A DNA stretch of 64,000 bases from Entrophospora sp. SA101 (Eukaryota; Glomeromycota; Glomeromycetes; Entrophosporales; Entrophosporaceae): NCBI GenBank assembly GCA_958430865.1, contig CAUDNR010000713.1:1-64000 (forward strand), in the 5' to 3' direction. Under the pieces are notes generated by a model that did not search any database, was not told the DNA's origin, and saw nothing but the letters and a program-made list of their open reading frames with translations. This document shows positions 1,738-64,000 of the stretch, one piece after another; the stretch's first letter is position 1; the number at the start of each line of letters is the position of its first letter. The position numbers were made by a program, and so were the translations under genes.

Positions 1738-2134
1738 CAGATTTGATTTAAATTATTTGTGAATAAAAAAAAGAGCATCGTGTAACAATTGTTATCAGGA
1801 AATTTTAAATTAATTACCAATAAGAAATGGAAATTAGATTGATTGAAGTGGGTTAAAAAGGAATATGTGAACGGCAATATAAATAAAAATTAAAATTAAA
1901 AAATATTTTTTTTATTTATACATATTAAATTAAAAATTTTGATATATGACAAAGTTGATTGGTGTTTCTTTGGTAACCTCCACGTCTCTCTTTCTCTCTC
2001 TCCTAAAAATTTTTTTCTATTATAATTATAAATAAATAATTCTTTTTTAAATTTTAAATTAACAACGAGACGAGGTTTTAAAAGGGAGAGAGAAATAAAA
2101 TATTATTGTATGTTCTTATGATATAAATTAAAAT

Positions 2135-2985
2135 ATGGATTTCGTATATGAGTTTTCAGAAATTATCAGAAAATATCGAAAAACAGAATCAAGTATTTTG
2201 GTAGCTGCAAGAACCCTAACATTAACGGTTTTGATTCTGTTAACAGTTGGATATTTGCTAATATTAGTGCTATTGGTTCTATGGGATAAGAGTGTAATAA
2301 CAACAGAAATACAATATCAAGAAATATTGCCGATACCAGGTTTGAAATTCTTTTATCTCGATTCATTCATTGATTGTTGGTTGATTAATATTCATATAGA
2401 TTTTTATTCAAAAATTTTATAGATTTTATGATATCTTTTAATTACCATTTTAGTCTTTCTTGTAAATTTAGATATCTTGGTAACTGTTTACTATTACTAT
2501 TATTATTATGATTGCTATTATTATTATATTTTGAAAATTATTTACACAATTATTCCCTTCTTCTTATTCCACACTAGATGGAACTCAATCAGAAATAGAT
2601 ATATGTACAGAACGATGCATCACACAACCAAAATGTATGAATTCAACTGAAGATGGGCGATGGTATGGTCATTTCACAGTAAATCCTGATGAAGTAGATG
2701 TAAATTTTAATAAAACTGCTAAACGTTATGGAATTTGGGTTACAATAAACATTGATGATCCAAGATATACAAGAGGTGATGACAAAGGAATGTACCTGAC
2801 TGCCTATGATTCAGATTTCAATCCACGTACAGTTGATATAGATAAAGAAAATATGGCATTAAAATATGATCCTGATTTTTATAACCAATTGAATCAATCA
2901 AATTTTCATATTATTGGCTTTCATCAGGTAAATATAAAAAATATAAAAAAAAAAGCATTACTGTTATATTTTGTTATTAATCATC

Positions 2986-3018
<33 letters not shown>

Positions 3019-4032
3019 TTAAAGGTTAATTGGATGTTTGTTAATAGACACATTAAACAAAAAATGATTCCAAATGGTTTAAATGTTTTAGGCGCACCAG
3101 CAAGTTATTTTGATATGCCATATATAACTACCAAGTATGGTTAGTAGTAGTAATAATAATAATAATAATAATAATAATGATTGATAATAAAATTATTTAT
3201 ATGGTTGATTAACAATAAGCCAACAAATTGATAAATTATAGAATCTGTAACAAATCCTGCAACAACACCAGAGTTTGATATTCAACCTGTCACAGGACCA
3301 CAATTATATTCAAATTTATTTATTGGCACTTTAAATTGGTATCAAGAAATACATAAAGAGTCAAGGTAATGAATGAATTATTACTTTTCCATTTCCATTT
3401 CCATTTCTTTAATATTTATATTAATTTATATTTATTTTATATTTATTTCACATGATTAGGTCACGACGTGTAAGTGTTGATATTTTTTTCTGAAGATAAA
3501 AAACAAATGAATTAGTAAATACAAAATTGTATTTATTATGATTATTATTTTATAGGTATTAGACTCTCTTGGTTTGCTTACTGGATTTTATGGATTTTTA
3601 ATGGGAATTTATATATTATTATTTGGTAAGTAATAAATGTATATAAGAAAGATTTTTTACAAGTAATTATCACAAATTAACAAAATCAAACCATTATAAT
3701 ATATGCTAATAGGGTTTGCACCAGTGTTACCATGGGGTGTGATACAAACATTTTTCATGAAAAGACAAATCAAAGAAAGTTTATATGAAATATATAAACA
3801 TGGATTTATACCATTAATAGATGAAGTTCCTCAAGATGTTCCAATTGAAATACGTATTAAAGAACTTGAAAAATTCTTAAAGCAATTTATATGTGAGGTT
3901 GATTATATGGAAGATGTTAAAGTAGATGAAAGTGGTGAAAGTGGTGATGGTGATGAAAAGGGTGGGACTGAGTATAATGAAAAAGAGATTGATGGTGAAG
4001 CTGAGAATAATGAGAATGAAGAAAATATGTAG
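2135..4032 (+). CDS. Gene A: two-pass membrane protein, unknown function
   Basis: Seven exons give 397 codons in an unbroken frame: 2135-2339, 2578-2927, 3025-3139, 3242-3365, 3460-3469, 3556-3625 and 3713-4032. All introns are GT-AG, and exon 5 is a 10-nt micro-exon. The protein has a short basic N-terminus, a transmembrane helix at about residues 24-50, a large middle domain with several Cys and N-x-S/T sites (NST, NKT, NQS), a second helix at about 270-295 (LDSLGLLTGFYGFLMGIYIL), a conserved PWG just after it, and an acidic Glu/Asp/Gly tail. The likely topology is N-in, glycosylated lumenal or extracellular loop, C-in. I do not recognise a named family. Gene B at 10006 is a paralogue with the same exon phases. 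No catalytic motif is visible. Confidence 0.82.
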
Positions 4033-4375
4033 AATTATATACATATATACACATTATATATCATCAGCATTTTATAACTGTATTAATATATTAATTTATT
4101 TAGAAATTTAGAATTATCTTAATTTTGGATAACTCCAACTAATTTTGTGTATTATTATTATGTATATTTTATACATATAATATCATGTTGAGGCAGAGTT
4201 CATGACATCACACTTTATGGAAAAAACAAAAATAAGGCATAGTATGATTTAACAATTAAATACAACAATAAATTTAATTTATTATATTTTTATCATATAT
4301 ACATGACCATTTGTCATTAAAAAAATAGATATATTATTACATTGGCCTGTTGATAATTGCATTTATACCCACCCC

Positions 4376-4660
4376 TTAGCAAATAATCAAACCCATATAT
4401 TCTTGAGGAATAATAAAGCCAAAGAAATATACCTTTTTATACACAGTCTTCTCTTCAGAATTAAATATTCTCGATGCATCATTGGGCCCATCAAATACTT
4501 TTCCCGACATTTCATAAAAAAAATTACTTGTAAACTTTTCATATTCAAAGTGAACATGAGCATCAGCAGAATAATAATCCAGGGTTAAATGAACTGGAAT
4601 TCATTGTTGGCAATAGTCAAATATACCTACCCATTTTCCCAAATCTTTTACGATGTGTGT
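4376..4660 (-). pseudogene. Decayed coding segment, unknown family
   Basis: Read on the minus strand, a frame open for about 75 codons ends at 4376. It contains protein-like text such as DAHVHFEYEKFTSNFFYEM and EEKTVYKKVYFFGFIIPQEY. An in-frame TGA at 4601-4603 separates it from a second open piece (THIVKDLGKWVGIFDYCQQ), and further upstream the frame shifts again (GKIKNLPAELF). Mixed hydrophobic and charged composition over several pieces suggests a former multi-exon gene rather than random AT-rich sequence. I do not recognise the family. The piece is copied in arm 2. Confidence 0.4.
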
Positions 4661-4876
4661 AAAATCTACAGATGTTAAAACAATTCAGCAGGTAGATTTT
4701 TGATTTTGCCTGTATATAAGTCCGAGATCCTGAGAAGCGGTGCCTACACAATAAAAAGAAGAAATTATATATGTTAAAAGAGGATATGATCTTGATACAA
4801 AAGATTTTGGATTGTGTCCAGAGGTTTAAAAAACCCTTCTCATCATCTAAAGTCACTTGTCGTAAATCATTGGGCT

Positions 4877-5175
4877 GGTAGCTACCATTGCTACCATTTG
4901 CCGTAAATAATTACGGCTGCCGCAAATAGATGCAGTTGCTGTAAATAGATACGACTACTTCAAATAACTACGACTGCTGGAAATAGTTTTCAATTATTTT
5001 CAGTAGCATTATTGTTCTGCAGTAACTGAATTTTTTTGGATTATAATTGATGAATTCAATTAGTCGGTCATTCATTTACAATGAACTTGTGTGTAAAAAT
5101 AAAATTTGCAACCGCATCTATTTGTATTTATTTGCGGCAGCCATAAATATTTTATAATGGTAGTTACCATTGCCG
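4877..5175. repeat. Imperfect inverted repeat, MITE-like
   Basis: The left arm (about 4877-4940, containing acggctgccgcaaatagatg) and right arm (about 5108-5175, containing catctatttgtatttatttg then cggcagcc) are imperfect reverse complements over about 65 bases, with an approximately 165-base loop. The motif 'gccgcaaat' or its complement occurs several times. This resembles a non-autonomous foldback or MITE element. No target-site duplication could be fixed. A second copy lies in arm 2 at 50277-50575. Confidence 0.5.
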
Positions 5176-6614
5176 CAAATAACCAATTGCCATCATTGTT
5201 TTTATTTCCCTTTGGAAATGATATGCACTGCTACTAAGGACAACTACAAAGGGTGAAGTGGAGGCACTATCACGAAAGGTAGGTGTGTATCATATTTACC
5301 CTTGATTTCTACTTATTATAAAGTTTTTATATAGTGATACAATCAAATAAAACAATAGCATATTTCTGTTATTATTTTGAATAAAAATTAACACTCATTC
5401 ATTTTCGTTTGAATTGTTTAATGAAGAAAGGTGATAATTCTATAATCTTTTGTAGTTTAATAAATTGTGGATTTAGGGAATACATATATAAAAAGTTGTT
5501 GTTGTTGCCAAGAATTTCTCGAGTTTTTCAAATTTTGATGAAAATTTCGATTTTATAACTGGTTCAAATATTTTCAAAGAATACTTGAACTTTTGAACTG
5601 TTAATTGGTTGAATAACCAGTTGATTGTTTGAATAATAAATTATACGAGAAAAGCAGTGTTAGGACCAACGATCGATTTTGTCACATGTGATAAAACGAA
5701 TGTCCACTATGCTGCTATCATGCGATAATTTTCATCTATAGGACAGAGGACTGATTGGGCAAAAATCCTTTAAGAAATGATTATACAAAACACTATTTTA
5801 CAACTTTCCTCTTAACATCAGAGTCCAAATGCAATTTCAGGGCCACAAACCCTGCTCTGAATTGCAACCTTCTACACTTGTGGGATATTATAAAACTGTT
5901 AATTATGATCACATTACAAATGACTAAATTTTGACCCCATATTAATATAAAAATTTATAGTTTTACTATGTCACATAATTTGATCCTAGCCTGCCCAAAA
6001 ATTATGTAAGAAAAGAACGAATTATAAGTAATACATAATATGCATTTTGAGCGAACCCATTTCTCTCGTAATTTTATAGGAAGAGATAATAGGAAGATGA
6101 CTTGATATTATTGTAAAGAGAAAAAATTCTAGCTTCGAAATGATGTAATTTTTATTCTTCCTCCCAAAGTGGGAAAATCATAAGAGATAATATACCAATC
6201 CTACAAACTGTTATAGATAGAGGCGGGGAAAATTTATTCATTTTACATACACATACTCACTCATGCACACACTCTAAATCCAATCTTCAACTTAAATTTA
6301 AAAAAGAAAACTCCACTTTATTCATAAATTTTCGATTCAATCGATTCAAATCCTCATTACAATAAATAATACCTAGACTGTCTCCACTCTGGTTCAATTA
6401 AATTTTTTTTACACATGAACACTTATAAGGAGAACTTTCCCGGGTTAGTATTCACCTCTCATTTTTTAATTTGTGGCAGGATATGTCAAACCACAACTAG
6501 CTAGTATTAGTATATACTATCACTATAGGATCCTTTCCTCGTTTAGTGTAACCCAGTAAAAGCCAATAAAATTAAATTAAATAATTAATAATAATAACAA
6601 CAACAACAACAATC

Positions 6615-8935
6615 ATGAATAGTCATAATAGCGGAAATAACAACAACGACGATTCTAACAATAAATTTCATTATAACCGTAGCTATAATAATAATAACCC
6701 TAAAAGAATATCTTTACCGAATCAAGATTCAAGTCAATGCACTTCTAGTGGAAATAAAAATTATTTTCCAAATAAATTAGAAAACAATAACAACGATACC
6801 TCACAATCGTCAAAATCAATTATTACAAGTCATAAATCTCCATCCACGCCACAAAATGCACTGTATGTAATTAAGTTATTCATTTTGCTCAAATATATTT
6901 TTATTATTAATTATAACTTTTCCAATTTTATATAGGAAATATTTAATACCTAATCTAGATTTCATTCCTATTAACAAAATAACATCAGAAGAAATAAAAG
7001 AGTTAGGAAAATATCATCCTATGATGAGTCCTGTTAAGAAAAGAAAATTTGATCATTTTGAAGCAGTAAATAGTTGGAGAAAGCCTAACGTCAGTGAACT
7101 TCCATGGATGAAAGACAATGATTGTAATAGAAAATATGATAATGTAGTACACAGGTAATGTGTGTGTATGTGTAATTTATTTATCGAATATTTAACAATT
7201 AAAAAGTAATAAATGACATGAAAAGATGTACAATTGATTTAATTGATCATTATTTTGTTAGGATGCATTTTGAATTAAATGATCTAATAGAGTACCTTTC
7301 TCCAACCGAGATTGAAAGATCATTAAGAATATTTGTAATTAAAAGAATTGAAGCTGCTATCAAATCTAAATTCAGTGATTCTGAAGTTTTCATATTTGGA
7401 AGTTTTAATTCTGGAATCTATCTTCCCACAAGGTAAAAATTTTTTTCCCCTGTAATTTTAAACAAACAAACAAACAATTGATTGATTGATTGATTTGATC
7501 TTTAATAGTGATATTGATATTGTCGTTTTTGGTCATGTAAGTTCGTTAACGCCACTCTCTCAACTGGCTGATTATTTAGAAATCAAAGGATATTCTTATG
7601 GCAGGCCCACAGTAATACGTGGGGCAGTGGTATGTATCTATATTATAATTTTAATTGCTAATTGATAAATATTTATTTAATGTATTATTTTTTCTGATTG
7701 TTTAAAATAATATTTAGGTTCCTATTATCAAATTCAAAGAAAAATACACTGAAATTAACATTGACATATCATTTAATCAGAGATCTGTTTTTGCATCTGT
7801 TAGCACTATAAAGGGATATCTTAGAGAATGGCCTATTCTTGGTAGATTGCTATTGGTTTTAAAATATTTTTTAAAACACCATAATCTTGATGACCCATCA
7901 AATGGTGGAATGGGCGGCTATACTTTGTTCTGTATGATATTAAATTTTCTACAGGTATTTTATAACAATAACAATTTTAGTAGAAATTAAGCAAGTTACA
8001 CACATATATATATTAATTGTTTATTTATAAAATATCAAGTTACACCCACGTATTGCTGATGGTACTTTAAAGATAGACAGTAATGATAACCTTGGTGTTC
8101 TTTTGATAGAATTTTTTGAATTATATGGAAATCAGTTCAATTATAAAGATCTGGCAATCACAATAAGAAATGGCGGAAGCTATTGTAGAAAGGTAATAAA
8201 TTAATGTAAATTGACATGTGTTCATACATTAAATTGTAATAATATACACATTTTTTATTTTAGATAATGATTTATTTATTAAAATCTATTTTTTTTCTTT
8301 ATATCATAGTACTATCAAAGTTGGGCAGTTAAAATTCCAGAAACAAATTTATGTATACAAGACCCATCAGATCCTGGTATTATTATTATTTAATTATATC
8401 ATTACAATTACTAATAACAAATATAAATGATGATATTAGAGCCATCTAACCCACACCATTATATTGTATATATTAAGATAATGATATAGCACGTGCAACA
8501 AGAAAGATAGAATTGATTCAGGAAGCATTTAACCGAGCGTTCCTACGACTTGTTAATAGAGTGGGACAACTTGAAAAAGTACATAGACCGATTGGTGCTA
8601 ATTATGTCACGGGGTTTGATAATAAATCAATTCTTTCATCTATTTTATTTATTTCTGAAGATATGCAATCATTAAGAAGAAATTTATTACGAGAGTATAA
8701 TGAAAATGGATTGAAACGATTGGTTCTAAAAACAAGCAATAATCTAGGAACACTACTAACAACTTATGATTATGAATTTATTGTCGAAAAATTTGCAAAG
8801 GAAATCGAAGAGTCAGACTATCGTCGTAACTTTAGAGTCAACTCTTTATTGAGAAGACGTAAACCAGCAAGATTTAAGTCATTTCCAAAATATCAAGATA
8901 GGGATGACTATTATCTTGAGGATTTATATGATTAG
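6615..8935 (+). CDS. TRF4: TRF4/PAPD5-type non-canonical poly(A) polymerase
   Basis: Eight exons give 557 codons: 6615-6862, 6936-7154, 7262-7432, 7509-7629, 7718-7954, 8040-8192, 8310-8376 and 8478-8935. The N-terminal 85 residues are Asn/Ser-rich and disordered. The nucleotidyltransferase core shows the signature Gly202-Ser203 (FGSFNSGIYLP) followed by DID at 214-216, and a third Asp at 269 (INIDISF); these are the three expected metal ligands. The PAP-associated motif NLGVLLIEFFELYGNQFNY follows at about 349-367. A basic Arg/Lys-rich C-terminal stretch resembles that of Trf4/PAPD5. In the family this enzyme adds short oligo(A) tails to nuclear RNAs within TRAMP and feeds the exosome. Its length is close to yeast Trf4 (584). 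Intron boundaries preserve the family alignment across every join, so I regard the gene as intact. Confidence 0.92.
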
Positions 8936-10005
8936 AATTGAAAGGTGGTTCAATAGATGGATGACATATACTATTTGTAATTTGCTATTATTATTTCTTT
9001 TATTATTTCTTAAAAAAAAAAAAAATAAAGGTATTTATGTGTGTGGTGTGTTTATGTATTATCGTATAATTATTTTTTTTTCACTATTTACAATTTATTT
9101 TTTTAGAATTCACTAGCCGGAAGAAAGTATCCGAATAAGGGTTTTCAATAATAATAATTAGGTAAAATACCACATAATAAAACCACATACAATTTACATC
9201 ATTAGATAGCTTGTGTTTTTTAACTTTTGCGTATTAATTAAAAACCCCATATAAATTTCGATATTAAATCTCAATAAAATTGATTGGATCAAAAAAAAAT
9301 TACCGTGAGGTTTTAGAAATAAGGAAAATACTTTAAATACTTATTACAGTTATGATGATATATGAATAAAGTTAACTTTTAAAAATTAACACAATTTGGC
9401 GTAGGAAATGTAGATTACCAATTAATCGTCCACCCTTGTATCCCGATGAATATTAAGGATTTAACGTCATATTTAAAGGCTTTATTGTGCAGGAAATGCA
9501 GGTTCAGAAATTATTACCAATTTACATTCTAAAATGGTATTTGCTTATTCCTTACAATAACTTCTAAAATCACATTGTCCCGAGAAAAAGACCGCCTTTC
9601 CGTTACCATTATTATAGTGAAAAAGGCATAAAAAATACAGAAAGAACTGTGAAAATTTTTTTTTAATATAGCCAGTTTTAGCAAAATAAGTGATATAAAT
9701 CGAGTTATCACATGCAAATATGCAAGTAACTTCTTTTTCTTTCTATAATTTTCTCGTTAGTTTTTGTGCGTGAACTATTTAAAGAAAGAGATTTACATTA
9801 CAACAAATTCCAGAGTTGGGGCTGAGTTGACATTATTAAATAAAGTTTCGAAGATGGAATATTTATCGTGTAACCAAAATTTTCGCGCCTTTACTTTGTT
9901 AATAAATCAATGTTTACTTTTAAAGGTGTGACTAATTAGTTTTAATGTTATAAATTGAGACTATTTACATATTTTTTTTTTAAAAATAAAAGATAAATTT
10001 TCAAA
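8936..10005. other. Intergenic, nothing recognised
   Basis: AT-rich spacer between TRF4 and gene B. It carries a 13-A run near 9012 and no convincing coding frame on either strand. It presumably holds the TRF4 3' end and the gene B promoter. Confidence 0.5.
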
Positions 10006-10199
10006 ATGACAAGATTGTTTTATGAACCAAAAAAAATATATCAAAGGAAAAAGGAACCTCGTGTTTTAATTTGCATGAGGATTTCATGTTTATCAATTTC
10101 CATGATAATATTAATAGCATATTCTGTTTTTTTAATATATTCTAATGGAATTGCCATTACGAGTGTGACAATACCTAAACCATATATACCAGTACCAGG

Positions 10200-10233
<34 letters not shown>

Positions 10234-12049
10234 TTTCTTGATTAAACGTTTTAATTCCTTATTCCAAGGTTAATAATAATTACTTGGATCGTTTAGATTT
10301 AATAATAACTGCGAAGTTTAGTTTTTCAATGGATTGTCAATTTCGATATCTTGGTAATTTAACAATATTGATTGATGATTTAGGAAAAGAATTTTTTTTT
10401 GTAATCGAAATCTTAAAATTATTTTATTTATTTTGTTTATTAGATAACAGAATAATATCTCAAACAGACAAGGATTTATGTTTAAATTATATAGTGCCAA
10501 CAATATGTGACGAACCTGATCCTAATGATTTATCGAAGAGTCGATGTATAGGAAAATTCCAAGTTCCAACTGAACTTCTGGATGCACCTATAACTGAAAG
10601 ATTAAATTTTAGTTTACCTGATAAACGTTATGGCATTCAATTTTTAATCAATATCACTGATGCTGAATATAATCCAAAATATGATAATGGTATTGTAATT
10701 AAAGCCTACGATCAAGGTAACTTTTTTTTGCTTAGTAATTTTATACTATTATCATATTAACTTAAAAAAATTTTTAAATATAGAATTTAATCCACACAGA
10801 TTACCTGAAGCGGTGGGTAATCTCGTAAATAAACTTGATCCTTATTTTATTGAGAGACTTGATAGTCTCAACTTTCATATAATGACATATCATCAGGTAT
10901 TATTAATGCAATAAATATTACACACATATTATTTTAATCGATTTATTAATTAGTTCAATTTATTTATTTATAAAGATAAATAGTATATATATTGATAGGA
11001 AGACAAGAGAATTTCTTATAACGTCATTTTGGGAAATGCTCGGTTTACCTCCATATTATTTCCTTCAACCTTATATTGATTCTAGAATTGGTTAGTGGGT
11101 AACAATTAATAGTTAACCAATTTAATTTTAATGATAAAAAAAAATTTCTTTTATTGAATTTATTTGTTTTTTTTTCTTTAAATAAAATTAGAATATATAA
11201 GAATACCAAGTATAATAGATCAATTTGCAACCAGTAATTATGGTATTTTATTTGTTGGTACTTTGAATTGGATTGAAACAATAGAAAGTGATCTTAGGTG
11301 TTTGTTTTTGATATTTAATATAAATTTTTTTAAATTTGAAATTCTTTAACATTGATTTTTTAACACTGATTTTTTTCTACTTTGATATAGAATTTATAAT
11401 GTAAATAAACATATTATTACATATATAATATATATATTTTCTCATTTCATTTCAAAATAATCAACAATTAATTTTATTATATTTTCTGTTATTGCTATTT
11501 ATATAAAGAATCTGGATTCAATCGCATTAATATCATTATTTTATTCATTATTAACTGGAGTTTATACTTTTCTATTTGGTAATTTTTATACATAAATATT
11601 GTTGTAAATGGTTTTTTTGTTGCTTTCGAAAATATAATTACTTACATAATATGTTTATATATATATATATGATACAGGTTGGTCTGCAATAGTGCCTTGG
11701 GGAATATGTCAAAGGTCATGTTGTTCCAGCGGATCAAAAGCAAAACTATGCAAAAAATTTGAATCAAGAGGTATACCGCTTATGCCATCAACAACTCCAG
11801 ATAAAGATGTCAGTGGTTTAATGGAATTTTTGGGACCAATATTACTAAGATCAACGAATTCAATTAAAAAAGATGAAGAGAATGACACTCCTAATTCTTC
11901 AACTACTAAAATTTCTTTACCACCGACTGAAGATAAGAATAGGTTAAGTCTGTGTAGTATGTATAATTTTTAAAGATGAGAATGGTAATTTGATAAGTCC
12001 TGAAAATATTGACCCTAACGATATTCAAATTATTCAATATTTTATTTGA
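10006..12049 (+). CDS. Gene B: paralogue of gene A, two-pass membrane protein
   Basis: Exons: 10006-10198, 10444-10716, 10784-10896, 11003-11090, 11192-11297, 11391-11400 (10-nt micro-exon), 11509-11578 and 11678 onward. Without a further splice the frame stops at 11973 (382 residues). A possible last intron 11943-11997 would give a stop at 12047-12049 (389 residues). Aligned with gene A it shares PVP-D/PIP-D after helix 1, AYD-x-x-FNP, SNFH/LNFHI followed by HQ, LG-P-YF, GTLNW, helix 2 and PWG. It has one extra intron (after 10716) absent from gene A. Predicted topology is as for gene A, with helices at about residues 22-45 and 262-288 and NFS and NIT sites between. The function is unknown. 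The pair flanks TRF4, suggesting an old local duplication. Confidence 0.78.
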
Positions 12050-12210
12050 AAATAAAATCATAACTGAAAATATGATTGTGTTAAAATGTACAATCTTTTT
12101 AATTAATTAAATGTTTATTATGTTAATGTAAATTCTATTAATATTTTACAAAACTATAATTCTAAAGAGTTTTTAAGTTGAATTTTTTACTATGAGGCTT
12201 TGTAATATTA

Positions 12211-12671
12211 TTAAACATGTAAAATGCTGTTGCCATCACCATCATCATCACCATCACCATCACCATCACCATCACCATCACCATCACCATCACCATCACC
12301 ATCACCATCACCATCACCATCATCATCATTATTTATTATGAAATTTCCTTCAAAATTATTAGAATTTTCATAATTTGGTGGAGATGTTTGAAAAGTAGAA
12401 AGATAATCAGGTGCAAAATTATTATTATTATTTTCATCATTATCGTTGATGTTGTTGTGATCATAATTGATTTTGTCATATTGAGGCAAATCATCATAAG
12501 CTTTAAAAGATGATAAAGTTATTGGTATATCAATTTTAGTACTTATTTTCTTCTTTTTAACTTTTTCACCTATTCCAAAATCTGGTAATGATCTTGTTAA
12601 AAAGAATTGTTTGTTGTGTTCATTATTATCATCGTCGTCATCGTCATCATTATCGTCTACGTTAATGGTGA

Positions 12672-12704
<33 letters not shown>

Positions 12705-13912
12705 CACCATCGTCAATATTAAAGTTGGAAGGAACTTTTATTGTGTAGATGAATTTCAAATTGTGTATTATTGAGATTGAAGTTGTTTCGCATGACGAAT
12801 GAATTTTTTTTGAAGGTTTTGGTAAAATAAATGAAATATTTTTATGATAAATAAATTTATTATCGTTGATCACTTTATCTAAATTTTCGATCTTCAGAGT
12901 TTTTAAAACTTTTGAATCTTGATTCGTGTGGCCTTTTGATCTGCGAATACAAGTTTCTGTCAATTGTACCTTTAACTCGACAAAATCTAAATGTTTAACT
13001 TTTGGTATTAATTTCAAATGCATTTCTATGGGCTGACCAATGGAATATACTTTTTTCGGCATCATGATTTCGTAACCAAATAAATTTTTCCAATCACTAG
13101 AAGTGACAATACCTTCAGAATTCATTTCTTCGGATATAGAAGCACGCATTATGGGTACTTGTTGTGTCACATGTATATTTGGCAATAACCCTGGTCTAAA
13201 GAGTGTCGCGCTCAATTTATAAGAGACACTTGCTAATTCAGTATCTATTGTTTCTGGCGAATCACCGGGTATAAACAATTCAAAAGGAAAGGTGTAAATG
13301 TTAGGTTGAAGAATGGTATAACATTTTGAAGATAATTTTCGAATGATATTTAAACGTGAATTTAATTGTTGTCCTTGTTGCAAAGGTGGTGGTGATGATG
13401 ATGGCGATGATGGCGATGATGGGTGAACGGACGATTGATAAGATAAGAATGTCCAATTTTTTGATATTAATTCACATTCTTCACATAGATCATTATTATT
13501 CGTAGAGCCTAATAAATTATTTAATAAACTGTTAATAAATTATTATCATTACTATTATTATTGTTATAGGTGGAAAACAATAAAAAGATTTATTCGGAAA
13601 ATTTAATTACTAATACTAACCATAATAGACTCTACCCTCTGGCCAAAAAGTTTTCGATTTACCGTTAAATTTCAAATCTAATTTTTTTATTTTGGTTGGT
13701 TTGTCTAAAATTAATATTAGTTCGCCCCTTAAAAAGCAACCTAATGATTCTTGAGGATTTCCGCGTAGAAAAAGTGCTGGCTCCATTAATTTAATTTTTA
13801 GACAAGTAGAAGAAGAAAATAATGATTTTGAATTATTCCTTTGTGGAATGCTATCATTATTTGATATAAATGAAGAAAATGAGGTTCTTGTAGAAATACT
13901 TTGTGGAGACAT
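12211..13912 (-). CDS. Alpha-arrestin, predicted ubiquitin-ligase adaptor
   Basis: Two exons on the minus strand (13912-13621 and 13508-12211) give 529 residues; the ATG at 13912 is the first of the frame. Exon 1 has the arrestin-N pattern (FLRGELILILDKPTKIKKLD, then WPEGRVYYG). Exon 2 continues with YTFPFELFIPGDSPE and SVSYKLSATLF, typical of fungal arrestin domains, and then an arrestin-C-like half. The Asn/Asp-rich tail has a PPNY sequence near residue 470, a PPxY ligand for WW domains of Rsp5/Nedd4 ligases, and an LPQY upstream. In the family, such proteins direct Rsp5 to plasma-membrane transporters for endocytosis. The C-terminus ends in an (Asp-Gly)n run encoded by the CCATCA hexamer microsatellite at about 12235-12325, so its length is probably variable. 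Confidence 0.85.
12233..12330. repeat. CCATCA hexamer microsatellite in arrestin C-terminus
   Basis: About 15 tandem copies of a CCATCA/CACCAT hexamer lie inside the coding sequence. They translate on the minus strand to an Asp-Gly run. The tract has the same length in arm 2 (57633-57730). Confidence 0.9.
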
Positions 13913-50060: not shown

Positions 50061-50276
50061 AAAATCTACAGATGTTAAAACAATTCAGCAGGTAGATTTT
50101 TGATTTTGCCTGTATATAAGTCCGAGATCCTGAGAAGCGGTGCCTACACAATAAAAAGAAGAAATTATATATGTTAAAAGAGGATATGATCTTGATACAA
50201 AAGATTTTGGATTGTGTCCAGAGGTTTAAAAAACCCTTCTCATCATCTAAAGTCACTTGTCGTAAATCATTGGGCT

Positions 50277-50575
50277 GGTAGCTACCATTGCTACCATTTG
50301 CCGTAAATAATTACGGCTGCCGCAAATAGATGCAGTTGCTGTAAATAGATACGACTACTTCAAATAACTACGACTGCTGGAAATAGTTTTCAATTATTTT
50401 CAGTAGCATTATTGTTCTGCAGTAACTGAATTTTTTTGGATTATAATTGATGAATTCAATTAGTCGGTCATTCATTTACAATGAACTTGTGTGTAAAAAT
50501 AAAATTTGCAACCGCATCTATTTGTATTTATTTGCGGCAGCCATAAATATTTTATAATGGTAGTTACCATTGCCG
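50277..50575. repeat. Imperfect inverted repeat, second copy
   Basis: Copy of the foldback-like structure at 4877-5175. Confidence 0.5.
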
Positions 50576-52014
50576 CAAATAACCAATTGCCATCATTGTT
50601 TTTATTTCCCTTTGGAAATGATATGCACTGCTACTAAGGACAACTACAAAGGGTGAAGTGGAGGCACTATCACGAAAGGTAGGTGTGTATCATATTTACC
50701 CTTGATTTCTACTTATTATAAAGTTTTTATATAGTGATACAATCAAATAAAACAATAGCATATTTCTGTTATTATTTTGAATAAAAATTAACACTCATTC
50801 ATTTTCGTTTGAATTGTTTAATGAAGAAAGGTGATAATTCTATAATCTTTTGTAGTTTAATAAATTGTGGATTTAGGGAATACATATATAAAAAGTTGTT
50901 GTTGTTGCCAAGAATTTCTCGAGTTTTTCAAATTTTGATGAAAATTTCGATTTTATAACTGGTTCAAATATTTTCAAAGAATACTTGAACTTTTGAACTG
51001 TTAATTGGTTGAATAACCAGTTGATTGTTTGAATAATAAATTATACGAGAAAAGCAGTGTTAGGACCAACGATCGATTTTGTCACATGTGATAAAACGAA
51101 TGTCCACTATGCTGCTATCATGCGATAATTTTCATCTATAGGACAGAGGACTGATTGGGCAAAAATCCTTTAAGAAATGATTATACAAAACACTATTTTA
51201 CAACTTTCCTCTTAACATCAGAGTCCAAATGCAATTTCAGGGCCACAAACCCTGCTCTGAATTGCAACCTTCTACACTTGTGGGATATTATAAAACTGTT
51301 AATTATGATCACATTACAAATGACTAAATTTTGACCCCATATTAATATAAAAATTTATAGTTTTACTATGTCACATAATTTGATCCTAGCCTGCCCAAAA
51401 ATTATGTAAGAAAAGAACGAATTATAAGTAATACATAATATGCATTTTGAGCGAACCCATTTCTCTCGTAATTTTATAGGAAGAGATAATAGGAAGATGA
51501 CTTGATATTATTGTAAAGAGAAAAAATTCTAGCTTCGAAATGATGTAATTTTTATTCTTCCTCCCAAAGTGGGAAAATCATAAGAGATAATATACCAATC
51601 CTACAAACTGTTATAGATAGAGGCGGGGAAAATTTATTCATTTTACATACACATACTCACTCATGCACACACTCTAAATCCAATCTTCAACTTAAATTTA
51701 AAAAAGAAAACTCCACTTTATTCATAAATTTTCGATTCAATCGATTCAAATCCTCATTACAATAAATAATACCTAGACTGTCTCCACTCTGGTTCAATTA
51801 AATTTTTTTTACACATGAACACTTATAAGGAGAACTTTCCCGGGTTAGTATTCACCTCTCATTTTTTAATTTGTGGCAGGATATGTCAAACCACAACTAG
51901 CTAGTATTAGTATATACTATCACTATAGGATCCTTTCCTCGTTTAGTGTAACCCAGTAAAAGCCAATAAAATTAAATTAAATAATTAATAATAATAACAA
52001 CAACAACAACAATC

Positions 52015-54335
52015 ATGAATAGTCATAATAGCGGAAATAACAACAACGACGATTCTAACAATAAATTTCATTATAACCGTAGCTATAATAATAATAACCC
52101 TAAAAGAATATCTTTACCGAATCAAGATTCAAGTCAATGCACTTCTAGTGGAAATAAAAATTATTTTCCAAATAAATTAGAAAACAATAACAACGATACC
52201 TCACAATCGTCAAAATCAATTATTACAAGTCATAAATCTCCATCCACGCCACAAAATGCACTGTATGTAATTAAGTTATTCATTTTGCTCAAATATATTT
52301 TTATTATTAATTATAACTTTTCCAATTTTATATAGGAAATATTTAATACCTAATCTAGATTTCATTCCTATTAACAAAATAACATCAGAAGAAATAAAAG
52401 AGTTAGGAAAATATCATCCTATGATGAGTCCTGTTAAGAAAAGAAAATTTGATCATTTTGAAGCAGTAAATAGTTGGAGAAAGCCTAACGTCAGTGAACT
52501 TCCATGGATGAAAGACAATGATTGTAATAGAAAATATGATAATGTAGTACACAGGTAATGTGTGTGTATGTGTAATTTATTTATCGAATATTTAACAATT
52601 AAAAAGTAATAAATGACATGAAAAGATGTACAATTGATTTAATTGATCATTATTTTGTTAGGATGCATTTTGAATTAAATGATCTAATAGAGTACCTTTC
52701 TCCAACCGAGATTGAAAGATCATTAAGAATATTTGTAATTAAAAGAATTGAAGCTGCTATCAAATCTAAATTCAGTGATTCTGAAGTTTTCATATTTGGA
52801 AGTTTTAATTCTGGAATCTATCTTCCCACAAGGTAAAAATTTTTTTCCCCTGTAATTTTAAACAAACAAACAAACAATTGATTGATTGATTGATTTGATC
52901 TTTAATAGTGATATTGATATTGTCGTTTTTGGTCATGTAAGTTCGTTAACGCCACTCTCTCAACTGGCTGATTATTTAGAAATCAAAGGATATTCTTATG
53001 GCAGGCCCACAGTAATACGTGGGGCAGTGGTATGTATCTATATTATAATTTTAATTGCTAATTGATAAATATTTATTTAATGTATTATTTTTTCTGATTG
53101 TTTAAAATAATATTTAGGTTCCTATTATCAAATTCAAAGAAAAATACACTGAAATTAACATTGACATATCATTTAATCAGAGATCTGTTTTTGCATCTGT
53201 TAGCACTATAAAGGGATATCTTAGAGAATGGCCTATTCTTGGTAGATTGCTATTGGTTTTAAAATATTTTTTAAAACACCATAATCTTGATGACCCATCA
53301 AATGGTGGAATGGGCGGCTATACTTTGTTCTGTATGATATTAAATTTTCTACAGGTATTTTATAACAATAACAATTTTAGTAGAAATTAAGCAAGTTACA
53401 CACATATATATATTAATTGTTTATTTATAAAATATCAAGTTACACCCACGTATTGCTGATGGTACTTTAAAGATAGACAGTAATGATAACCTTGGTGTTC
53501 TTTTGATAGAATTTTTTGAATTATATGGAAATCAGTTCAATTATAAAGATCTGGCAATCACAATAAGAAATGGCGGAAGCTATTGTAGAAAGGTAATAAA
53601 TTAATGTAAATTGACATGTGTTCATACATTAAATTGTAATAATATACACATTTTTTATTTTAGATAATGATTTATTTATTAAAATCTATTTTTTTTCTTT
53701 ATATCATAGTACTATCAAAGTTGGGCAGTTAAAATTCCAGAAACAAATTTATGTATACAAGACCCATCAGATCCTGGTATTATTATTATTTAATTATATC
53801 ATTACAATTACTAATAACAAATATAAATGATGATATTAGAGCCATCTAACCCACACCATTATATTGTATATATTAAGATAATGATATAGCACGTGCAACA
53901 AGAAAGATAGAATTGATTCAGGAAGCATTTAACCGAGCGTTCCTACGACTTGTTAATAGAGTGGGACAACTTGAAAAAGTACATAGACCGATTGGTGCTA
54001 ATTATGTCACGGGGTTTGATAATAAATCAATTCTTTCATCTATTTTATTTATTTCTGAAGATATGCAATCATTAAGAAGAAATTTATTACGAGAGTATAA
54101 TGAAAATGGATTGAAACGATTGGTTCTAAAAACAAGCAATAATCTAGGAACACTACTAACAACTTATGATTATGAATTTATTGTCGAAAAATTTGCAAAG
54201 GAAATCGAAGAGTCAGACTATCGTCGTAACTTTAGAGTCAACTCTTTATTGAGAAGACGTAAACCAGCAAGATTTAAGTCATTTCCAAAATATCAAGATA
54301 GGGATGACTATTATCTTGAGGATTTATATGATTAG
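52015..54335 (+). CDS. TRF4: TRF4/PAPD5-type poly(A) polymerase, second copy
   Basis: Identical to 6615-8935. Exons 52015-52262, 52336-52554, 52662-52832, 52909-53029, 53118-53354, 53440-53592, 53710-53776 and 53878-54335; 557 residues with GS...DID and third Asp intact. If both copies are real, the fungus would have two equal genes for the TRAMP-type polymerase, which is unusual for such a gene. Confidence 0.92.
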
Positions 54336-55405
54336 AATTGAAAGGTGGTTCAATAGATGGATGACATATACTATTTGTAATTTGCTATTATTATTTCTTT
54401 TATTATTTCTTAAAAAAAAAAAAAATAAAGGTATTTATGTGTGTGGTGTGTTTATGTATTATCGTATAATTATTTTTTTTTCACTATTTACAATTTATTT
54501 TTTTAGAATTCACTAGCCGGAAGAAAGTATCCGAATAAGGGTTTTCAATAATAATAATTAGGTAAAATACCACATAATAAAACCACATACAATTTACATC
54601 ATTAGATAGCTTGTGTTTTTTAACTTTTGCGTATTAATTAAAAACCCCATATAAATTTCGATATTAAATCTCAATAAAATTGATTGGATCAAAAAAAAAT
54701 TACCGTGAGGTTTTAGAAATAAGGAAAATACTTTAAATACTTATTACAGTTATGATGATATATGAATAAAGTTAACTTTTAAAAATTAACACAATTTGGC
54801 GTAGGAAATGTAGATTACCAATTAATCGTCCACCCTTGTATCCCGATGAATATTAAGGATTTAACGTCATATTTAAAGGCTTTATTGTGCAGGAAATGCA
54901 GGTTCAGAAATTATTACCAATTTACATTCTAAAATGGTATTTGCTTATTCCTTACAATAACTTCTAAAATCACATTGTCCCGAGAAAAAGACCGCCTTTC
55001 CGTTACCATTATTATAGTGAAAAAGGCATAAAAAATACAGAAAGAACTGTGAAAATTTTTTTTTAATATAGCCAGTTTTAGCAAAATAAGTGATATAAAT
55101 CGAGTTATCACATGCAAATATGCAAGTAACTTCTTTTTCTTTCTATAATTTTCTCGTTAGTTTTTGTGCGTGAACTATTTAAAGAAAGAGATTTACATTA
55201 CAACAAATTCCAGAGTTGGGGCTGAGTTGACATTATTAAATAAAGTTTCGAAGATGGAATATTTATCGTGTAACCAAAATTTTCGCGCCTTTACTTTGTT
55301 AATAAATCAATGTTTACTTTTAAAGGTGTGACTAATTAGTTTTAATGTTATAAATTGAGACTATTTACATATTTTTTTTTTAAAAATAAAAGATAAATTT
55401 TCAAA
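54336..55405. other. Intergenic copy (as 8936-10005)
   Basis: Nothing recognised. Confidence 0.5.
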
Positions 55406-55599
55406 ATGACAAGATTGTTTTATGAACCAAAAAAAATATATCAAAGGAAAAAGGAACCTCGTGTTTTAATTTGCATGAGGATTTCATGTTTATCAATTTC
55501 CATGATAATATTAATAGCATATTCTGTTTTTTTAATATATTCTAATGGAATTGCCATTACGAGTGTGACAATACCTAAACCATATATACCAGTACCAGG

Positions 55600-55633
<34 letters not shown>

Positions 55634-57449
55634 TTTCTTGATTAAACGTTTTAATTCCTTATTCCAAGGTTAATAATAATTACTTGGATCGTTTAGATTT
55701 AATAATAACTGCGAAGTTTAGTTTTTCAATGGATTGTCAATTTCGATATCTTGGTAATTTAACAATATTGATTGATGATTTAGGAAAAGAATTTTTTTTT
55801 GTAATCGAAATCTTAAAATTATTTTATTTATTTTGTTTATTAGATAACAGAATAATATCTCAAACAGACAAGGATTTATGTTTAAATTATATAGTGCCAA
55901 CAATATGTGACGAACCTGATCCTAATGATTTATCGAAGAGTCGATGTATAGGAAAATTCCAAGTTCCAACTGAACTTCTGGATGCACCTATAACTGAAAG
56001 ATTAAATTTTAGTTTACCTGATAAACGTTATGGCATTCAATTTTTAATCAATATCACTGATGCTGAATATAATCCAAAATATGATAATGGTATTGTAATT
56101 AAAGCCTACGATCAAGGTAACTTTTTTTTGCTTAGTAATTTTATACTATTATCATATTAACTTAAAAAAATTTTTAAATATAGAATTTAATCCACACAGA
56201 TTACCTGAAGCGGTGGGTAATCTCGTAAATAAACTTGATCCTTATTTTATTGAGAGACTTGATAGTCTCAACTTTCATATAATGACATATCATCAGGTAT
56301 TATTAATGCAATAAATATTACACACATATTATTTTAATCGATTTATTAATTAGTTCAATTTATTTATTTATAAAGATAAATAGTATATATATTGATAGGA
56401 AGACAAGAGAATTTCTTATAACGTCATTTTGGGAAATGCTCGGTTTACCTCCATATTATTTCCTTCAACCTTATATTGATTCTAGAATTGGTTAGTGGGT
56501 AACAATTAATAGTTAACCAATTTAATTTTAATGATAAAAAAAAATTTCTTTTATTGAATTTATTTGTTTTTTTTTCTTTAAATAAAATTAGAATATATAA
56601 GAATACCAAGTATAATAGATCAATTTGCAACCAGTAATTATGGTATTTTATTTGTTGGTACTTTGAATTGGATTGAAACAATAGAAAGTGATCTTAGGTG
56701 TTTGTTTTTGATATTTAATATAAATTTTTTTAAATTTGAAATTCTTTAACATTGATTTTTTAACACTGATTTTTTTCTACTTTGATATAGAATTTATAAT
56801 GTAAATAAACATATTATTACATATATAATATATATATTTTCTCATTTCATTTCAAAATAATCAACAATTAATTTTATTATATTTTCTGTTATTGCTATTT
56901 ATATAAAGAATCTGGATTCAATCGCATTAATATCATTATTTTATTCATTATTAACTGGAGTTTATACTTTTCTATTTGGTAATTTTTATACATAAATATT
57001 GTTGTAAATGGTTTTTTTGTTGCTTTCGAAAATATAATTACTTACATAATATGTTTATATATATATATATGATACAGGTTGGTCTGCAATAGTGCCTTGG
57101 GGAATATGTCAAAGGTCATGTTGTTCCAGCGGATCAAAAGCAAAACTATGCAAAAAATTTGAATCAAGAGGTATACCGCTTATGCCATCAACAACTCCAG
57201 ATAAAGATGTCAGTGGTTTAATGGAATTTTTGGGACCAATATTACTAAGATCAACGAATTCAATTAAAAAAGATGAAGAGAATGACACTCCTAATTCTTC
57301 AACTACTAAAATTTCTTTACCACCGACTGAAGATAAGAATAGGTTAAGTCTGTGTAGTATGTATAATTTTTAAAGATGAGAATGGTAATTTGATAAGTCC
57401 TGAAAATATTGACCCTAACGATATTCAAATTATTCAATATTTTATTTGA
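55406..57449 (+). CDS. Gene B, second copy (paralogue of gene A)
   Basis: Identical to 10006-12049. Exons 55406-55598, 55844-56116, 56184-56296, 56403-56490, 56592-56697, 56791-56800, 56909-56978 and 57078 onward. The frame stops at 57373, or at 57447-57449 if the possible last intron 57343-57397 is used. Confidence 0.78.
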
Positions 57450-57610
57450 AAATAAAATCATAACTGAAAATATGATTGTGTTAAAATGTACAATCTTTTT
57501 AATTAATTAAATGTTTATTATGTTAATGTAAATTCTATTAATATTTTACAAAACTATAATTCTAAAGAGTTTTTAAGTTGAATTTTTTACTATGAGGCTT
57601 TGTAATATTA

Positions 57611-58071
57611 TTAAACATGTAAAATGCTGTTGCCATCACCATCATCATCACCATCACCATCACCATCACCATCACCATCACCATCACCATCACCATCACC
57701 ATCACCATCACCATCACCATCATCATCATTATTTATTATGAAATTTCCTTCAAAATTATTAGAATTTTCATAATTTGGTGGAGATGTTTGAAAAGTAGAA
57801 AGATAATCAGGTGCAAAATTATTATTATTATTTTCATCATTATCGTTGATGTTGTTGTGATCATAATTGATTTTGTCATATTGAGGCAAATCATCATAAG
57901 CTTTAAAAGATGATAAAGTTATTGGTATATCAATTTTAGTACTTATTTTCTTCTTTTTAACTTTTTCACCTATTCCAAAATCTGGTAATGATCTTGTTAA
58001 AAAGAATTGTTTGTTGTGTTCATTATTATCATCGTCGTCATCGTCATCATTATCGTCTACGTTAATGGTGA

Positions 58072-58104
<33 letters not shown>

Positions 58105-59312
58105 CACCATCGTCAATATTAAAGTTGGAAGGAACTTTTATTGTGTAGATGAATTTCAAATTGTGTATTATTGAGATTGAAGTTGTTTCGCATGACGAAT
58201 GAATTTTTTTTGAAGGTTTTGGTAAAATAAATGAAATATTTTTATGATAAATAAATTTATTATCGTTGATCACTTTATCTAAATTTTCGATCTTCAGAGT
58301 TTTTAAAACTTTTGAATCTTGATTCGTGTGGCCTTTTGATCTGCGAATACAAGTTTCTGTCAATTGTACCTTTAACTCGACAAAATCTAAATGTTTAACT
58401 TTTGGTATTAATTTCAAATGCATTTCTATGGGCTGACCAATGGAATATACTTTTTTCGGCATCATGATTTCGTAACCAAATAAATTTTTCCAATCACTAG
58501 AAGTGACAATACCTTCAGAATTCATTTCTTCGGATATAGAAGCACGCATTATGGGTACTTGTTGTGTCACATGTATATTTGGCAATAACCCTGGTCTAAA
58601 GAGTGTCGCGCTCAATTTATAAGAGACACTTGCTAATTCAGTATCTATTGTTTCTGGCGAATCACCGGGTATAAACAATTCAAAAGGAAAGGTGTAAATG
58701 TTAGGTTGAAGAATGGTATAACATTTTGAAGATAATTTTCGAATGATATTTAAACGTGAATTTAATTGTTGTCCTTGTTGCAAAGGTGGTGGTGATGATG
58801 ATGGCGATGATGGCGATGATGGGTGAACGGACGATTGATAAGATAAGAATGTCCAATTTTTTGATATTAATTCACATTCTTCACATAGATCATTATTATT
58901 CGTAGAGCCTAATAAATTATTTAATAAACTGTTAATAAATTATTATCATTACTATTATTATTGTTATAGGTGGAAAACAATAAAAAGATTTATTCGGAAA
59001 ATTTAATTACTAATACTAACCATAATAGACTCTACCCTCTGGCCAAAAAGTTTTCGATTTACCGTTAAATTTCAAATCTAATTTTTTTATTTTGGTTGGT
59101 TTGTCTAAAATTAATATTAGTTCGCCCCTTAAAAAGCAACCTAATGATTCTTGAGGATTTCCGCGTAGAAAAAGTGCTGGCTCCATTAATTTAATTTTTA
59201 GACAAGTAGAAGAAGAAAATAATGATTTTGAATTATTCCTTTGTGGAATGCTATCATTATTTGATATAAATGAAGAAAATGAGGTTCTTGTAGAAATACT
59301 TTGTGGAGACAT
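57611..59312 (-). CDS. Alpha-arrestin, second copy
   Basis: Identical to 12211-13912: exons 59312-59021 and 58908-57611, 529 residues. It includes PPNY and the same length of Asp-Gly hexamer tract (57633-57730). Confidence 0.85.
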
Positions 59313-60474
59313 GATATGTATGTGTGTTACGAGATAAATTTTTTTAAAAAAATCAAAAAAAAAAAATCAAAAAGTTCTAAAATTTATACCACTCCAAAAA
59401 ATTATGACGCAATTACATAATCGATACGATACCAACTAAAATTGGAAACGCCTTTACTATTACTTAATATTACTTAAGCCAAACAAAGCTCAGATCCGAA
59501 ATTATTTTATTTAATTGTAAAATTATTTCCCGTTGGAAATTATTATACAAAAAGGAATATTTATTTATATTGATGTTGAATTATCTGTATTATTTGTTTT
59601 GTATAATTAAAGTTACTAGATCATATCTGACATATAAGTTATCCGATATCGAATGCACTATGACAAACAATGTTCAAATTTGGCTAGCACGTGGATAAAT
59701 TAAATTATTTACTTGCAGTGCAAGGATCTCTTGACTCTAGAATTATGCATAATAAAAATTATTTTTCCAAATTAGTAAAAGTTTGAAAATTATAAAATGA
59801 ATGGTAACAACGAATTTGGTCTTTTAAACTGTTTGTAGTACATGACAAATTTTGTATTAATAGATTAATATGAATAATGAACCGACACCAATTGTTTTAT
59901 TTTATTTTCCTTTTATTATTTAGATAGATGATATACTTATCAAATTAAGATATAAATCGATTTTTTTTTTTATGGGTGGAATTATCGATCGAATCTAATG
60001 TTAAATATGTATTTTACTACGTAGTTCACGAGAAATTTGGCAGCGAAAATTCTGGTTAGATTTGGAAAAATAATCTCTAAATTTGGTCAAATTAAGGTTA
60101 CATATCAATAATAACAATGTCGCTTTTTCCAATTTTTTTACACATGGAATTAAAAGGGAACTCGGCACACATGATCACATGTATTCTATTTTTGGAAGTT
60201 CCCTTTAAAATTAATTTGGCAGTGTGGCGAGGTTCAGCACTTCTATGAAGGCTAATAAAATATAAAATTTACAAGAAAAATATACGTTCCAAGGTCTTCT
60301 TCATTTTAAAAGACAATAAATAAAATCTCACGGATGTACATATATTAATGCGTTTTTATTAATATTGTGACTAAATACTCATAATTGCTTATTTTTTTTT
60401 TATATATATAGAACTGCGACCAAGTACAGTGAAAGGACAAAATTAAAAATCACGCGAAATGATCATTTGTTTGA

Positions 60475-60598
60475 GAATTGTTATTCGCACCCCTCCCGTG
60501 ACCAAGTCAAAGATGAACCAATAAAATTATCACATTTTAAAGCCATTCATTGGTCACATTACTACACTTAGTCACGGGAGGGGTACGAATAACAATTC
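60475..60598. mobile_element. 124-bp MITE, copy within arm 2
   Basis: Exact counterpart of 15075-15198, copied with the arm rather than by transposition, because all flanking sequence is the same. Confidence 0.85.
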
Positions 60599-61679
60599 CC
60601 TAAAAATATGGTACAAATAAACATGACGCCAAGTCATTCCAACGAATACGATTTTATGAGGAGTTGTGCATTGTAAATTTTTTTTATGTATTGTCACGTC
60701 GTTAAAAAATAAATAAAAATATCGGCCGCGTAACTCAAATGAGCTCTTGCTAACTATTTACTCATATGTTAAGTCAAGTTTAGTCAAGTTTAGTCAAGTT
60801 TAATCAAGACAAAATTATTATATATATACTAATTAAGATTTAATCCCTTCACCAGCCCTGACAAATACCCGCATCAGTCCCATACATGTAACCAGTAGTA
60901 TTACTTGTTTTATCACTGTTATGCCCATTGTTAGCTATGATCGTCATTATAACGTGTTATTAACAAGTATAGATTTCTAAATTTGGTCTCAAGCAGTTGT
61001 AAAAAATTTATCACGTTATATATATATGCATTATCAGAAAATTTGAAATGTTATGCTTGGCTCACTACCAGATTTTTTATGTTACATTGAATCGCTACAA
61101 GTTTATCTATAGTTAATCTTCAAGGTTTTTCTATTACTGTAAATAGAAAATAAGCGAAACTGAAAAATACCTACGTCTCAAAAAAATTTGCAAAGTTTCT
61201 TTTGTTATTATTATTATAATTATTGTTCAGAAAGAATCATACAATTATCATTTATTGTCATATAATAACAATAGCGATGGTGTATTGATTATTCAAAAAA
61301 ATTTTGTCCAACAAATATAAAGTAAAATAATTTTTTCTTTATGATATTTATTGTTCAGTTAAAACTTGTTTGTTACAACATTTTACAACATGTGGGTAGG
61401 GATCAATTAAATTTTTCTTTTATTTTTCATATCCAACAAACATCATGTTTTGAAATATTATTCGAAATGAATACATGACAATGTCCCAAAAATTTTGATT
61501 ATTTTGTCATGATTATTTTTTAATTATTGAGTAAATCAATCCATCCGTATTCATGTTTTTGGGGAAATTTTTTTCCATTGAAAATATTTCTTTTGGAAAT
61601 ATAAAATAATTCTTTTAATGAATATATAATGTTAGAAAATAATTCCTTTAATGAAAATAAAAATTCAAAGAATACAACA

Positions 61680-62385
61680 AATACTAACAAATCATTCACC
61701 TGGTCCAAGTAACTGGACAAGTGGTGTTAGTAGAAATCGTAATCATAAAAGTACAGTTTTAGATCAAATTTAGATCAATTATATAATTATGGAACAATAA
61801 CTAACAATGATGTAGATTTTATATCTTCATATTATGAAGACATGAATGATGAAAAATATTTGAAGATGATTAATAAATTATTAAAAAGTTAATTAATTAG
61901 AGAACAAATTAAATATACAAGATTCTACCAGAGAATCAAAATGTCAATCACAATCAATTAATCAAAACTACAACTTAATTAGTAACTTTGCCATGATCTC
62001 TTCCATTACCCTGCATTCTTCTCAAGAGCATTTAAAACAATCGCTACAATTAACAACGCATCTCCTGACACTGAACCTGGTAATAATTCAGAATAATTCA
62101 AATATGCAATTCAGAAGTTGCACCTATTGTCAATGTATCAAATGACGGTGATGATAATGATGATAATGATAATAATATTAACGTCATTTCATTGACTTAT
62201 TGACTTTATTTCAATAACAACAATAATGATTATGATAAAAATTACAACAAATGGTTCATATCTATATAGTAACAGCAACACCGATAATAATGATAATAAT
62301 AACAATAATAGTATCAATAATTCATCAAAGTCTCAAGATAAATATGCATACTATTTAAAATTACCCTACAACTTCAACATTAAAT
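61680..62385 (+). pseudogene. Asn/Asp-rich coding relics, second copy
   Basis: Same broken frames as 16280-16985. Confidence 0.35.
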
Positions 62386-63387
62386 TTACTAATGGTTGAT
62401 ATATCATCGCAACACGTATCCTTAATTGTAATAAAACAAAATGATAAAATTATTATGATTTGTTTTATGGAATGTAAGCATACGCGTTTAGGATTATGAA
62501 ACATTGAAGTTTAAAGGATTTTTTAAAGTTTGCCTTCAAGTTTGAAGTTTGTTCTAAACATTATATTCTTGGATAAATTTTTGACATATACTTCAACAAA
62601 TCAGACAAAATGAACATTATGTTATAAATAAAAAGCAATCTCAAGGATCAAATTTAGTGTATTCGGCAAATTATAATAATAATAATATTTATCGATCCAA
62701 TCTTTTTTTAATATTGAACATATACTCCCTTTCATAAGGGTAATAGAATGTTTTCATATGCAATTCTATATGGCTTGATTTTATCAAGAAAATCATCTGA
62801 AGATATTTCCGTAAATTTTATCAGTGAAAGTTACCTTGTAATATATTTTTTAAATTTTTTAATTCATCATCGTTCCGCTTTTATTCTTCACAATTTTCAA
62901 TTTTATCCTATTCCCCATTGAATTGAATTCTTTTAAATTTAAATCATCTCTTCCTAATATAGAGGTAAGCGTTGATTTTCCATTGTTGAATTATTGTTAG
63001 GTTAATTTGTTGCAGTAGGTTAAACCAGTGTTGAGGCCAAGAAATTATTTGGCTGGCCAAGTGCCAACTACGAGCTAAAAAATTGAAATTTTGAATAAAA
63101 TTTAAATTTTGGTGAAACCATTCATTTTTTCCTCTGATTGGATGTTTTTTGCAAATAATGAATTGGCTTGCAAACCAGCAATTCATCGCAAACTTAATCG
63201 ATTATTAAGCAATTTTAGCGTGCCCCTTGCCTTTCTCCTGCATATTAACACTCGCCCACAAGGAGTTCAACAACGATATCTGCATCCAAGTTCAACTCAT
63301 CAAACTTCTTCATTATAAAACAACTAATGAAAAGTCATAAATATACAGTATTAATGATAAGTATTTATCAGTAATAATAATAATACT

Positions 63388-64000
63388 TCATACTTTAGGA
63401 TATTTTGGAGAGATGTTTTCCTTCTTAAATAAAAAAATACCATCGTCTGATCTTTTCCATCGATAAAGCTGAACTAAAATATGAAGACCTTGCTTTTAAA
63501 ATTGTTGAATGGGTTTTAAAAGTTCTAACATCATCATCTTCTCCAACTTTGATTTCAAAATCAAGTCCAACATCAACAGTGGAAATATCATTTGCTTTGT
63601 CTCTTGAAGCTCGATTATCCCATGATAATTTTATTTTATGATCTTGAAGAATTAAAGTACCGTGATACCATTATATGCATTTTCAGCACCATTTATATCT
63701 TCAAATTCCACAAAAGCATGTCTAAAATCAATCAAACACTTGTGAATAAATGTCTTATTAAATTTTGACAATAAAATCAAAAATCAAAAACATAAATTAC
63801 ATCAAACAAAACCATACCTTTCAAATATACAAGTCGCATCATTTCCACAAAATGCATAAGATGTATTATCCACTCTGAATGAACATAAAGTTTCCCTCCT
63901 TTTTTTATTAACGACAGATTGAATAATGATGATGATATTATAATGAAATAGCTCATTAATCATAAATGAGTATTTACCTCGGAGCTAAGGAATGCCTTCT
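63388..64000 (-). pseudogene. RRM-BTB relic, second copy, cut by window end
   Basis: Same content and the same two frameshifts as 17988-18600. The basic first exon is cut off by the end of the window. Confidence 0.6.

Follow-up and report, generated by a model that had tools for sequence, protein, structure and literature searches.

A 20-kb exact direct repeat in an Entrophospora sp. SA101 assembly is very probably one locus entered twice

Contig CAUDNR010000713.1 (hereafter C645; 111,040 bp) of the Entrophospora sp. SA101 assembly GCA_958430865.1 (101.35 Mb in 2,123 contigs) carries a direct repeat that begins within its first 64,000 bp, the stretch analysed here as the window, and whose two arms are identical over 20,070 bp. 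We strongly favor the explanation that both arms represent a single genomic locus, present on two redundant contigs that were set in tandem across a join of 10 Ns; the repeat is very probably not a real genomic feature. This explanation is the most likely one because many ordinary genes of the assembly are doubled in the same way. The arms and the join between them are as follows.

1738-21807, plus strand: arm 1, an exact copy (20,070 bp) of 47138-67207
46509-46518, no strand: the 10-N join, which lies between the arms, 619 bp before arm 2
47138-64000, plus strand: the part of arm 2 inside the window; exact identity goes on to contig position 67207

Extent and edges of the repeat

The arms were compared base by base at an offset of 45,400, with the remainder of C645 beyond the window included. 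A prior sequence-only reading of this DNA had equated 1738-18600 with 47138-64000, and the comparison bore this out with no mismatches over 16,863 bp. The left edge given there (1738/47138) is exact, while the end coordinate is the end of the window rather than that of the repeat: the identity continues in the same orientation to 21807/67207. False duplication is expected to yield copies that are identical or nearly so, and these arms run for 20,070 bp without a mismatch; chance is excluded as the source of their identity. The identity also covers microsatellites, as had been claimed, with seven of at least 14 bp found by a simple pattern search of the arm, all within the exact stretch. Past 21807/67207 the arms enter a divergent island of ~0.5 kb, in which 36 of 518 gap-free columns differ (~7%) in addition to indels. 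Beyond the island ~2.4 kb are again identical, and the homology of the arms ends at ~24672/70080.

A genuine, extremely recent segmental duplication of 20 kb, with its copies ~45 kb apart on one chromosome, would explain the exact identity in the same orientation, as well as flanks that differ at each edge. However, a biological segmental duplication should have arms linked by continuous sequence, and here the 10-N gap intervenes as the sole link between them. The earlier suspicion that this join weakens the claim of linkage was sound. C645 contains one other gap, of 15,122 Ns at 74442-89563, and the two gaps divide the contig into ungapped pieces of 46,508, 27,923 and 21,477 bp.

On the left, each arm is preceded by a short tail.

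1-1737, no strand: left tail of arm 1, with which C645 begins; ~700-1737 is repeat-derived, with a ~300-bp element at 937-1232 nested inside
46519-47137, no strand: left tail of arm 2, the 619 bp after the gap; a repeated element reaches to 47010

The unlike left junctions had been taken to argue for two real junction types. This argument is weak because the flanks are short (1,737 bp and 619 bp) and largely made of repeats, and because that of arm 1 stops partway through an element whose sequence goes on in two other contigs. The arm 1 tail finds matches of 82-88% over 700-1737 on C1595, C1095 and C1137, and of up to 99% over 937-1231. By eye, its element runs on in C1595 and C1095 past the point where C645 turns into the arm, and the junction at 1737/1738 shows two shared letters (CA), as judged against relatives of only 82-84%. 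A transposon insertion as the clean left edge of arm 1, suggested by similarity to C1095 that ends at 1737, was ruled out, since C1095 and C1595 share sequence further on. The arm 2 tail is ~91% identical to its best relatives over 46519-47010, and its last ~127 bp are practically without another match among the matches listed. The edges of the copies are thus found at a contig start, in a tail that follows a gap and, on the right, past a multi-copy element.

The right edges involve five stretches, which are given here with their copies elsewhere.

19938-21807, plus strand: in both arms an exact match to an inverted copy at contig 98573-100442
21727-21807, no strand: 81-bp stretch common to two paralogous types, in which the type switch of arm 1 falls
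21808-22300, no strand: the divergent island; arm 1 is of the C2113 type and arm 2 of a third type that in part resembles the inverted copy
23188-27589, plus strand: right end of arm 1 with the adjoining flank, identical over 4,402 bp to contig 100437-104838
24542-24665, no strand: inverted-repeat element of 124 bp with 32-nt perfect arms and many genome copies; the two arms of the large repeat part just beyond it

Within the island, three differences remain between arm 1 and C2113. The possibility that arm 2 is there simply of the inverted copy's type was ruled out, as at 15 sites the difference is private to arm 2. From ~22300 to ~24672, arm 1, arm 2 and C2113 agree, save for an apparent one-base gap in C2113. 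After ~24672, arm 1 continues like contig 100437-104838 and arm 2 like C2113, with which it is exact over 68811-71587, up to the end of the C2113 stretch compared. From these sequence types, the right half of each arm reads as a mosaic of paralogous types, with the switches at different points in the two arms. The short inverted-repeat element at 24542-24665, which is also present at 15074-15209, has relatives of at least 91% on at least 24 other contigs.

The island bears on a second alternative, in which nuclei or haplotypes really carry the locus with different left and right neighbors and the scaffolder placed both alleles in tandem. The ~7% difference at 21808-22300, where arm 2 is of its own type, is compatible with such alleles, as are doubled loci elsewhere that are near-equal in score (see below), for example C1902/C1572 (TCP-1) and C1068/C2070 (proteasome). 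However, the island sits in a multi-copy family, so that paralogues can supply it, and 20,070 bp without a difference, seven microsatellites included, beside abruptly unlike flanks is not ordinary allelic divergence. We therefore regard two real alleles as an unlikely explanation.

Exact doubling across the assembly

Sequence searches of the assembly repeatedly listed pairs of loci with identical scores, in many cases on the same contig. Ten other pairs of loci with equal scores, all picked for that equality, were partly compared as DNA; such picked pairs show that an equal score usually denotes an exact copy, not how frequent doubling is. Nine of the ten have exact on-diagonal runs of 600-4000 bp, three of these being identical over the whole stretch compared, and the tenth (C1675/C1325) has merely a 297-bp repeat in common. 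Seven other pairs share a contig, and in three of these a gap adjoins a copy. On C1514 the second copy is preceded at ~0.8 kb by a gap of 10 Ns, on C1591 a gap precedes one of the copies by ~0.1 kb, and on C1794 one copy ends at a gap.

As a less selected test, the full score sets of the loci of three families (MCM, TCP-1 and proteasome) were compared. A score set identical to that of another locus was found for 39 of the 61 loci, which form 17 groups, and the remaining 22 belong to none. By family, four of six MCM loci fall in two equal-score groups, ten of 19 TCP-1 loci in five and 25 of 36 proteasome loci in ten. The subunit genes of these families we take to be normally single-copy, and on that assumption the 39 loci are doubled as genes are in false duplication; equal score sets could in principle also stem from true identical paralogues. 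Five of the 17 groups are contained within a single contig. These are C1455, with two copies 30,382 bp apart on the same strand that are identical over the 600 bp compared, C2 (three copies, one inverted), C714 (two), C1683 (two, inverted) and C1256. On the last of these, at 5960-82122, four proteasome-family gene copies with identical scores lie on one strand, 22-27 kb apart, as judged by score alone. The anatomy of the C645 repeat is common in this assembly.

Doubling on C645 itself extends beyond the arms to the spacer between them.

37379-46508, plus strand: end of the spacer before the gap, also present at C1529:54835-63945

This match to C1529 shows one mismatch and six gap openings in the 8.5 kb compared. 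Besides this near-exact match, C645 forms a web of exact blocks (19938-21807, inverted; 23188-27589, direct; and arm 2 with C2113).

These data speak against a segmental duplication, as equal-score doubling also affects MCM, TCP-1 and proteasome genes (17 groups) and C1529 carries a second, near-exact copy of the spacer end. Since many loci of the assembly are exactly doubled, a simple segmental duplication was set aside as the leading explanation, and we consider it very unlikely. Thus, of the two options offered by the sequence-only reading, one locus placed twice is supported and a very recent segmental duplication is not. It could also be proposed that some nuclei carry a fresh 20-kb duplication of gene A, a TRF4-like gene, gene B and an arrestin gene, and that the assembly-wide doubling partly reflects rapid nucleus-specific copy-number change; to this we give hardly any credence.

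How one locus may have been written twice

SA101 is the strain of PMC6987183 (Claroideoglomus claroideum/luteum), an arbuscular mycorrhizal fungus. In that study, 24 nuclei were amplified and sequenced, the per-nucleus assemblies were merged with Lingon (workflows 1 and 2) or the reads were pooled (workflow 3); Chromosemble was then used to scaffold each of the three assemblies on a Nanopore assembly. The authors report that duplicated genes increase in workflow 2 and are few in assembly 3n, and owing to duplication they discourage building a consensus assembly from normalised single-nucleus data. The SA101 protein that matches the spacer open reading frame (ORF) at 40094-42832 falls in a cluster in which the longest contig measures 46,508 bp, the same length as the piece 1-46508 of C645. 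Literature searches under the genus name Entrophospora gave an unrelated metagenome paper and, judged by titles, no paper on the SA101 genome.

We infer both a route of amplification and merging and the step that made the doubling. The region would have yielded two overlapping contigs, probably from amplified single nuclei, that were imperfectly merged and kept separate (1-46508 and 46519-74441), and then joined in tandem over the 10-N gap, 10 Ns being presumably what the scaffolder writes at joins. The unlike left ends would be contig-end tails in repeats, at least one of them probably chimeric, and the right ends would part because the two contigs continue into different members of a repeat family.

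A number of observations weigh against one locus written twice. The left flanks differ, whereas a plain double placement would repeat the same flank, and the account therefore also needs a chimeric or variant junction in one contig or both. On C1794 the copies agree exactly for 1,762 bp yet show eight mismatches in 2.6 kb, and four of the seven other same-contig pairs have no gap within the stretch compared. The family loci were compared by score, with C1455 being the sole pair compared as DNA, over 600 bp, and the evidence as a whole comes from assembled sequence. In addition, the present build, by its 101.35 Mb and 2,123 contigs, has no counterpart among the seven rows in Table 1 of PMC6987183. 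Finally, the SA101 contigs of two proteins that match genes of the arms, P0003 (27,218 bp) and P0007 (4,140 bp), correspond to no ungapped piece of C645, so that the locus is also present on other SA101 contigs.

If the two arms are one locus, caution is warranted in the use of this assembly, as gene-family counts, dates of recent duplications and claims of structural variation between nuclei are likely inflated unless redundancy is removed first. Were the doubling biological, it would be a striking copy-number change among the nuclei of a mycorrhizal fungus; the evidence, however, argues against this.

Gene content and comparison with known systems

Each arm carries the following genes.

7203-7987 and again 52603-53387, plus strand: TRF4-like (non-canonical poly(A) polymerase) exons, with PF22600 matches
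10497-11946 and again 55897-57346, plus strand: gene B, related to gene A near 2640-2927
12165-13912 and again 57565-59312, minus strand: alpha-arrestin-like gene (PF02752, 40 bits)

The TRF4 identity is tentative, its basis being weak Pfam matches of the exons to PF22600, which score 27.1 bits (against a cut-off of 27) and 21.7 bits (under the cut-off). The arrestin exons of the arms are 100% identical to residues 1-238 of the SA101 protein P0003. Gene B matches residues 137-357 of P0007 exon by exon at 91-100%, and P0007 shares 37% identity with the gene A exon at 2640-2927. When 10400-14000 was used as a query, two copies were found at 100%; matches elsewhere were at 80-81% over long stretches and higher only in matches of tens of bases. 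In the spacer, the ORF at 40094-42832 is 100% identical to an Entrophospora sp. SA101 protein over 47% of the ORF, and its other two matches are to a second SA101 protein (75%) and to a protein of Entrophospora candida (89%).

The right end of the arm also contains a fasciclin-domain ORF at 20781-21122 (plus strand) and, by a weak match, a C2H2 zinc-finger ORF at 23041-24123 (minus strand). Transposase pieces at 29224-30594 and 32973-33482 comprise a Tc5-type DNA-binding domain, a Tc3-type helix-turn-helix and a DDE match under its cut-off. Neither tRNA genes nor Rfam families at gathering score were found in the 64-kb window, and the ORF at 6585-6932 had no match among solved structures.

Farther along C645, at 96957-104865, an inverted copy of 19938-23463 is joined to a direct copy of 23185-27618. 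At contig 100434-100442, the exact matches on either side share, by eye, the 6 nt GATAGG. This is an inverted junction with a short shared sequence, as in amplification chimeras, at a site that is not an arm edge. In addition, P0007 is a fusion of arrestin exons (minus strand) with gene B (plus strand), a case in which a chimera is difficult to tell from a faulty gene prediction on a rearranged contig. The resemblance of the GATAGG junction and P0007 to amplification chimeras suggests that such junctions occur in these data, with neither arm edge proven to be one.

The chimeras of multiple displacement amplification described in PMC1855051 are more than 85% inverted, and more than 70% were primed at 2-21 nt. 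The junction at contig 100434-100442 is similar in its inversion, its short shared GATAGG and its skipped interval; the likeness is limited to that site, and for the arm 1 tail a native continuation was not found. The merged single-nucleus assemblies of PMC6987183 are of the same strain, judged by protein identity, and have duplicated single-copy genes after merging. They differ in that the parts of the paper seen treat doubling at the gene level and describe no single locus, and in that the present build is unlike the tabulated assemblies in size. The false duplications in genome assemblies treated in PMC9516828 likewise present one locus as two and so create false gene copies. In the account given there, the main source is divergent haplotypes and a minor one sequencing errors, whereas here 20 kb are exactly identical, which fits redundant contigs better.

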